Notes under the pieces: model-generated
Database searches by the model: none
Told to the model about the DNA's origin: nothing
Seen by the model: the letters and a program-made list of their open reading frames with translations, nothing else
Part shown: positions 54,114 to 54,844 of the stretch, one piece after another
Numbering within the stretch: the stretch's first letter is position 1
Layout of the letters: the number at the start of each line of letters is the position of its first letter
Position numbers and translations under genes: made by a program
Assembly: GCA_012727955.1 (NCBI GenBank)
Contig: JAAYGB010000006.1
Coordinates: forward strand, 1 to 64,000
Direction: 5' to 3'
Length of the DNA: 64,000 bases
DNA from: Bacillota bacterium
GTDB lineage: Bacteria; Bacillota; Limnochordia; DTU087; JAAYGB01

Positions 54114-54249
54114 CGAAAACGCGCCGAGTATTTCCAGAAGCTAATTCCGGAAAAAATAGCTCCGAAGGGGATTTTCCGTGAAGGACGCTTGGAAATAAAG
54201 TATAAATAGAGATAAAGGCAGAGTATACGCAGAAAGGAGGTGGGCCAGG

Positions 54250-54336
54250 GTGAGAGTTTTTGGCCTTGTCGCTAAAGCAAACACAATGGATTGGCCCGCC
54301 GAAATCAAGGTGATGGAAGGGATCCATCACAGATAG
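54250..54336 (+). CDS. Small ORF (28 codons), possible leader peptide
   Basis: GTG 54250 is 9 nt after a perfect AAAGGAGG (54233-54240), and the frame runs 28 codons to TAG 54334. The sequence (VRVFGLVAKANTMDWPAEI...) matches no family known to me. It sits directly ahead of the hairpin at 54335-54354. A translated small ORF then hairpins then a gene is the layout of a leader peptide, though no run of one amino acid is present. Confidence 0.4.
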   Translation: MRVFGLVAKANTMDWPAEIKVMEGIHHR

Positions 54337-54398
54337 ACTGCGTCGTCGCAGTCTAGTGGGGGCCAACGCAGCAACAATCTACAGGAGGATGTTGGCCC
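54335..54398 (+). promoter_or_regulatory. Leader hairpins enclosing the ribosome binding site
   Basis: Stem 1: AGACTGCG (54335-54342) and CGCAGTCT (54347-54354) around TCGT, perfect. Stem 2: GGGCCAAC (54360-54367) and GTTGGCCC (54391-54398), perfect, with AGGAGG (54383-54388) in the loop and the ATG at 54399 right after. Stem 2 places the SD in a loop and its 3' arm against the start codon, so translation could respond to folding, heat, or a bound protein. Confidence 0.6.
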
Positions 54399-54662
54399 AT
54401 GTACTTGAACGCAGAAGATGTCTTACCACCGAGTCTCCTCCGACAGGTACAAAAGTATGTTAGTGGACGGGAACTTTATATCCCTCGGGAATCCGGGGAA
54501 CGGGTCGGATGGGGACAGCGCAACGGAACCAGAAGAAAGCTGCAGTTGCGCAACCAGGAGATTCGCAGGCGTTACCAGGAAGGTGAGCCGATTCATGCCT
54601 TGATGGAGGCATATCATCTCAGCTATGACAGTATTCGCAAGATTGTCAGAGCGAAAGAATGA
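54399..54662 (+). CDS. CD3324/Mor-like helix-turn-helix protein
   Basis: 87 residues. The start YLNAEDVLPPSLLRQVQKYV and ESGERVGWGQRNGTRRKLQ match the CD3324 family. The C-terminus (EIRRRYQEGEPIHALMEAYHLSYDSIRKIV) is a helix-turn-helix like phage Mor activators. It should bind DNA. Its own mRNA leader is highly structured, so autoregulation is possible. A 9-codon ORF after GAGGAGGTG lies just downstream (54757-54786). Confidence 0.8.
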   Translation: MYLNAEDVLPPSLLRQVQKYVSGRELYIPRESGERVGWGQRNGTRRKLQLRNQEIRRRYQEGEPIHALMEAYHLSYDSIRKIVRAKE

Positions 54663-54808
54663 TTCCTACGAAAACTGGGTACGCTGGAGTTGCGGATTCT
54701 TGGTAAGCTATCATTGGGATCAGGCCGAGATTGGTCCCGACGAGGAGGTGGTTGATATGATCAACCCGAGGTGGAGTGAGGCCTAATAGGCTTTGACTCC
54801 GTTAGGGG

Positions 54809-54844
54809 AATGCGGATAGGCTGCCTGAGCCTATCCGCATTTTG
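54809..54844 (+). terminator. Terminator after CD3324-like gene
   Basis: AATGCGGATAGGCT (54809-54822) pairs with AGCCTATCCGCATT (54828-54841), followed by TTGT. Also the likely terminator for the convergent sulfatase gene. Confidence 0.85.

Follow-up and report, generated by a model that had tools for sequence, protein, structure and literature searches.

In the ermC and ermB systems, a leader open reading frame (ORF) with a strong Shine-Dalgarno (SD) sequence precedes a macrolide-resistance methylase gene whose RBS2 and AUG lie in a stem-loop, and ribosome stalling forms an alternative stem-loop that exposes both (PMC9178857). In Actinobacteria, WhiB7/WblC combines attenuation at an upstream ORF (uORF) with positive feedback at its own promoter, and numerous antibiotics that target translation induce it (PMC7157823, PMC12121999). 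Control by a leader peptide upon exposure to ribosome-targeting antibiotics is also described for the anti-repressor in PA5471.1-ArmZ of Pseudomonas aeruginosa, where transcriptional attenuation has been proposed (PMC12057347). The uORF of toiL-topAI in E. coli senses several antibiotic classes, including through start-codon stalls, and regulates a toxin-antitoxin system (PMC12121999).

Here we describe a leader of related design in a 64,000-nucleotide stretch of Bacillota DNA, referred to as a whole as the window, where it precedes a gene of the CD3324 family. We consider it probable that this leader attenuates the translation of a regulator gene in the manner of ermB/ermC, and that it feeds a translation-stress circuit resembling that of WhiB7. 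As in ermC and ermB, there is a leader ORF with a strong SD, there are mutually exclusive helices between four RNA segments (1:2, 2:3 and 3:4), and segment 4 hides the SD and start codon of the target. The CD3324 leader differs from them in controlling a DNA-binding regulator rather than an rRNA methylase and in having leader peptides without a common stall motif; it is also modelled to open with stalls on codons 1-4, whereas ermC and ermB stall at codons 9-10. Since the controlled gene is CD3324 and not a methylase, the leader would work like an erm attenuator without being one. The likeness to WhiB7/WblC lies in a regulator placed under uORF attenuation, as judged from sequence and folding; positive feedback would be a further likeness if CD3324 acts through the candidate box at its own promoter. 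However, the CD3324/Mor-like protein belongs to an unrelated family and is no WhiB iron-sulfur protein. WhiB7/WblC relies on transcription attenuation, whereas the CD3324 leader appears to be mainly translational, with terminator versions in some relatives, and WhiB7/WblC governs hundreds of genes, whereas the only other target found for CD3324 is a micro-ORF RNA. PA5471.1-ArmZ likewise joins a leader peptide to a regulatory protein, although protein and phylum are different, and toiL-topAI shares uORF sensing but regulates a toxin-antitoxin system.

The CD3324 protein and the layout of its leader

The protein encoded downstream of the leader matches the CD3324 family profile NF040785 at 104.7 bits, well over the cut-off of 65 (E 2e-30), and, more weakly, Pfam Mor (PF08765; 30.0 bits, gathering cut-off 24.9, E 5.7e-7, profile positions 34-94 of 107), which bears out the CD3324/Mor-like identity proposed in an earlier, sequence-only reading. 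When the PDB was searched with the predicted structure (pTM 0.49), Mor (1rr7) ranked first, at an E-value of 0.72 and a TM of 0.36. The sequence match to the Mor/C activators of phage Mu is weak and the fold match not significant; unlike those activators, CD3324 is a chromosomal gene, present in a single copy in this genome, with a putative attenuator of its own, and it had no match in the phage records searched. Of 121 related genomes, 42 contain a homologue, and 37 of the 73 genomes of the window's class have one above the family cut-off. They also occur in Clostridia and Bacilli, including Paenibacillus and Bacillus subtilis, the latter serving as the search control. No paper on the function of the family was found in the literature searched. 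One plasmid locus (L134, 4396-5031) has a CD3324 gene with a gene for a FusB/FusC-type EF-G-binding protein about 130 nt downstream, and at another locus (L131) a nitroreductase gene precedes CD3324 and a MATE efflux gene follows it.

The leader and its gene in the window are laid out as follows.

54148-54166, + strand: box 1, CGGAAAAAATAGCTCCGAA, candidate CD3324 binding site at the leader promoter
54201-54207, + strand: inferred -10 element TATAAAT of the leader promoter, from the sequence and aligned promoters
54239-54248, + strand: segment 1, GGTGGGCCAG, overlapping the SD of the leader ORF (SD1), just 5' of the leader start
54250-54336, + strand: leader ORF of 28 codons with a GTG start, peptide MRVFGLVAKANTMDWPAEIKVMEGIHHR and a 9-nt SD match, AAGGAGGTG
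54291-54300, + strand: segment 2, TTGGCCCGCC, within the leader ORF and translated, partner of segment 1 or 3
54310-54330, + strand: 8-bp hairpin, GTGATGGA/TCCATCAC, inside the end of the leader ORF
54334-54355, + strand: 9-bp hairpin, TAGACTGCG/CGCAGTCTA, starting at the leader ORF stop codon
54360-54368, + strand: segment 3, GGGCCAACG, predicted to switch on when paired with segment 2 and off when paired with segment 4
54383-54388, + strand: SD of CD3324, AGGAGG (SD2), from the sequence
54391-54398, + strand: segment 4, GTTGGCCC, ending at the CD3324 ATG (54399)
54399-54662, + strand: CD3324-family, Mor-like DNA-binding protein of 87 residues, from profile matches to NF040785 and Pfam Mor

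The sequence-only reading had described a 28-codon ORF with a strong SD, an 8-bp hairpin at its stop codon, and two arms enclosing the SD of the DNA-binding protein with the start codon at the arm. The ORF, its SD, the hairpin at the stop codon and the arms (GGGCCAAC at 54360-54367 and GTTGGCCC at 54391-54398, with SD2 between them) are all present where it put them, the hairpin at the stop codon having one base pair more than stated. Its description of a dense control region, possibly a peptide-responsive switch, came close to the mark but took in half of the design, missing segments 1 and 2 and helix 2:3. The same arm occurs four times in the leader, as segments 1, 2, 3 and 4, and the pairings are therefore mutually exclusive, 1:2 together with 3:4 excluding 2:3. 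Helix 1:2 joins SD1 to the middle of the ORF, and helix 3:4 hides the SD and start codon of CD3324. The leader fold beats 200/200 shuffles (z -3.78). Free leader RNA can also form 1:4 with 2:3, which is the MFE structure here and leaves SD2 partly closed. The 8-bp hairpin in the end of the ORF is visible too in other leaders of the window's order. An Rfam search of the leader returned nothing credible among riboswitches, T-boxes and other RNAs; the remark that the layout is unlike known riboswitches was right in that this is not a riboswitch, but the layout itself is a known one, that of ermB/ermC-type translational attenuation.

Conservation of the leader and the modelled effect of ribosome position

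A uORF with a strong SD was found in 39 CD3324 loci, hand-picked from a systematic list, and about one fifth of the CD3324 loci examined had no recognisable leader of the erm-like kind. By a fixed-rule scan the full layout was present at 34/39 CD3324 starts versus 1/57 other gene starts from the same loci, a comparison that somewhat favours CD3324, as the rules were set after the leaders had been viewed. The layout recurs 5' of CD3324 genes in the window's class and beyond.

Helices were scored as contiguous, duplex energies with loops being too noisy. The best contiguous helices scored 22.6 for 1:2, 24.6 for 2:3 and 21.9 for 3:4, against 15.6, 15.9 and 13.6 in the respective shuffled sequences (s.d. 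of the mean about 0.4). Covariation was evaluated on a gap-free alignment of the four segments from 32 loci, anchored beforehand on a shared GGCCAA/TTGGC core; this favours pairing within the core, though not in the flanking positions, where most of the double changes fall. Helix 2:3 covaries best, with 86.9% of cells paired and double changes in 6 pairs (26 cells), and was matched by 0/500 shuffles, a figure that is not a probability because the shuffles ignore relatedness. For helix 3:4, 83.2% of cells are paired and 17 are double-change cells (8/500 shuffles). Helix 1:2 is paired in 80.4% of cells, compared with 35-50% in slid versions, and had no covariation beyond the shuffles, probably because the SD constrains segment 1. 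In L008, L009 and L017 the stem sequence has changed greatly and pairing is kept; such loci and the slid controls point the same way as the 2:3 covariation. Conservation across relatives had been suggested as a check on the leader, and both ORF and stems proved to be conserved, with compensatory changes.

We computed the cost of opening SD2 from folding energies with the ribosome footprint masked, as the mean of 31 loci. Free RNA required 14.2 kcal/mol; a ribosome placed on codon 1 lowered this cost to 10.4 kcal/mol, and one on codon 4 to 11.2 kcal/mol. With the ribosome further on it was 14.2 at codon 7, 15.5 at codon 10 and 14.3 kcal/mol at the stop. The relief at codon 1 amounted to 3.75 kcal/mol, and to 0.40 once the ORF body was shuffled. 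In the window's own leader, opening of SD2 costs 13.8 in free RNA, and the cost drops to 9.0 once a ribosome occupies codon 1. These modelled energies support the opening of SD2 by a stalled ribosome: ribosomes held on the first codons would switch the leader on, and ribosomes moving on would switch it off.

These data allow a mechanism to be proposed. With no ribosome, or with free passage through the leader ORF, segment 3 would pair with segment 4 and the SD and start codon of CD3324 would be hidden; on the folding models the resting state can instead be 1:4 with 2:3, which is also open to free RNA. A ribosome held on the first codons would mask segment 1 and so free segment 2 to pair with segment 3, and this pairing would open segment 4, allowing CD3324 to be made.

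Variants of the leader occur in relatives. L067, L069 and L078 lack 3:4 and have in its place a hairpin resembling a terminator, with T runs after it, while the 2:3 competitor is kept; L014 and L053 have a terminator-like hairpin plus an SD hairpin. The same logic is seen in Paenibacillus, Pseudalkalibacillus, Paraclostridium and other Clostridia, whose leaders have a strand common to two helices, located within a uORF or at its end. Across Clostridia, Paenibacillus and four plasmids the sequences are unrelated, and the uORF or its end shares a strand between two long helices; in L134 no uORF passed the SD rule of the script. A common core (CTCTATGCA / GCAAAG or ACAACACAG) with alternative helices is found in L057, L059, L061, L062, L063, L068 and L075, and by their sequence these leaders of Clostridia and Paenibacillus appear to form a separate family. 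Short ORFs with good SDs apparently run into the CD3324 start in L120, L125 and L128, perhaps as a translational-coupling version of the leader.

A palindromic box at two promoters and a 9-codon micro-ORF

A palindrome, CGGAA-N7-TTCCG, lies 5' of the leader promoter and is conserved in about 30 loci. Neither the sequence nor the aligned promoters contain a good -35 at the leader promoter, which fits an activator-dependent promoter. In a class-wide search the extended box pattern matched once in each of 17 genomes, every time at CD3324, and the reversed control pattern gave no matches. The general short-box search returned about as many matches as its reversed control and therefore does not point to a wider regulon. 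A second box lies across the CD3324 stop codon, ahead of a small unit with the following features.

54651-54669, + strand: box 2, GCGAAAGAATGATTCCTAC, spanning the stop codon of CD3324 and 5' of the second promoter
54709-54714, + strand: inferred -10 element TATCAT of the second promoter, from the sequence and aligned loci
54716-54843, + strand: small structured transcript with a micro-ORF, ending in a terminator (fold z -4.29)
54742-54751, + strand: strong SD of the micro-ORF, GAGGAGGTGG, from the sequence and aligned loci
54757-54786, + strand: micro-ORF of 9 codons, MINPRWSEA, its start in the loop of a 7-bp hairpin and its stop in a second hairpin
54810-54843, + strand: intrinsic terminator of the second unit, from sequence and folding

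The order of the second unit is box, promoter, 5' hairpin, strong SD, micro-ORF, stop-codon hairpin and terminator. Using weights built from the leader boxes with the locus itself left out, box 2 scores 15.0 (control P 0.001) and lies 106 nt before the micro-ORF. A box with a control P of <=0.02 was present at 36/37 micro-ORF copies; it lies 102-112 nt before the micro-ORF in 31/32 copies directly 3' of CD3324, and 5/5 copies elsewhere have it at -106 to -132. Among the latter, L181 and L182 are on another contig, L183 and L186 are 1-3 kb away, and the genome of L192 was outside the CD3324 searches. The boxes upstream of the micro-ORF copies offer the best evidence, at the level of sequence, that box and protein belong together. 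The gene's own promoter carries a candidate CD3324 box. Most likely, CD3324 binds this box, giving positive feedback, and also the box at the promoter of the small RNA with its conserved micro-ORF; we infer activation rather than repression. Of the autoregulatory RNA or DNA element that the sequence-only reading had allowed for, a protein-bound RNA is less likely, and DNA autoregulation at the box 5' of the promoter is preferred.

A sequence model of the small RNA, R1, matches 54717-54800 with an E-value of 1.3e-16, and an Rfam search of the 54716-54843 region gave no credible match. R1 has matches in 30/73 genomes of the class and in 17/299 genomes drawn from the phylum; the strong ones come almost entirely from genomes in which the searches had detected CD3324, and those near E 0.001-0.01 are probably chance. 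The RNA usually lies just downstream of CD3324, the five copies above excepted. In the window's order, the genes flanking the leader-CD3324-micro-ORF module are not common to the genomes, which argues that the module is an independent unit. Directly 3' of CD3324 in L067 and L069, apparent tRNA-Gln and tRNA-Glu genes, identified by eye, replace the micro-ORF unit.

The micro-ORF is exactly 9 codons long in 31/34 loci. Codon 5 is usually AGG, and an SD-like GAGGT inside the ORF is conserved, the internal GGAGGT giving a second SD-like sequence. Stop codons across the loci are TAA, TAG and TGA. In the start and stop hairpins the sequence changes and the pairing stays, the stop hairpin scoring 16.7 versus 8.7 in shuffles. 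RNAalifold found 4 pairs only on the micro-ORF alignment, because the stems are too different between lineages to align. A role as a second attenuator for the downstream gene was considered and rejected, as the next gene is often encoded on the other strand and the unit ends in a terminator of its own. A pure RNA is less likely, given that the start (ATG, TTG, once GTG), the stop and the length are kept while the stems change.

The signal, alternative explanations and significance

The 39 leader peptides inspected have no repeated-codon or amino-acid runs, and across loci they show no common stalling motif, nor do their N-terminal halves have any residue in common. Several are hydrophobic or basic near the start, and translation across segment 2 gives xWPA in 7/7 aligned genomes of the window's order. 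Because the peptides vary between species and lack codon runs, the likely signal is a general stress on translation, felt during initiation or early elongation and imposed for instance by ribosome-targeting antibiotics, rather than one amino acid or one drug.

An attenuator specific to one drug, its leader peptide stalling with a single antibiotic class as ErmCL does with erythromycin, would account for the erm-like layout and for the early hydrophobic or basic residues of several leaders. We regard it as unlikely: the peptides of different species have no stalling motif in common, and in the model only stalls on codons 1-4 bring about the response, where the nascent chain is too short for tunnel sensing. 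Stalling of leader ribosomes by scarce charged tRNA, as in the trp and his leaders, shares the topology of a uORF with alternative helices. It is very unlikely here, since inspection revealed no repeated codon and no common residue in the N-terminal half and since the controlled gene encodes a regulator rather than an enzyme of biosynthesis.

Slightly less probable still is autorepression, with the four GGCCAA/TTGGCC arms acting as DNA or RNA operators for CD3324. Although the arms are mutually palindromic and autoregulation is frequent among small regulators, the arms of L008, L009 and L017 differ in sequence yet pair, the compensatory pattern is typical of helices, and the separate palindrome 5' of both promoters is a better protein site. 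Least probable of all is an RNA thermometer, or a simple SD-sequestering hairpin beside an incidental ORF. Helix 3:4 does enclose the SD and start codon, with 83% of cells paired, but it is helix 2:3, of no use to a thermometer, that covaries most strongly; moreover, the uORF is kept in 34/39 loci and a terminator-like hairpin substitutes for 3:4 in some relatives. The thermosensor offered by the sequence-only reading loses ground for the same reason, as the best-supported helix is the alternative 2:3, which does not touch SD2.

Beyond the translational attenuator that we favour, a self-contained circuit can be tentatively envisaged. In this possible scheme the attenuator would sense early-stalled ribosomes, and CD3324 would activate itself and the micro-ORF RNA. 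Ribosomes would be the direct target of this RNA or of the peptide it encodes, which might serve as decoy, parking site or protective peptide. We know of no precedent for an effector of this kind acting on ribosomes.

No study of a translation-stress circuit of CD3324 was found in the literature searched. The finding is apparently a new form of translational attenuation, one that governs an orphan regulator and has as its companion target a micro-ORF RNA that appears to be undescribed, and the leader supplies a concrete signal hypothesis for the CD3324 family. If the proposal is true, Bacillota would have a WhiB7-like translation-stress regulator of their own, independently evolved, and the 9-codon gene would count as one of the smallest conserved genes, perhaps revealing a new way to handle stalled ribosomes.
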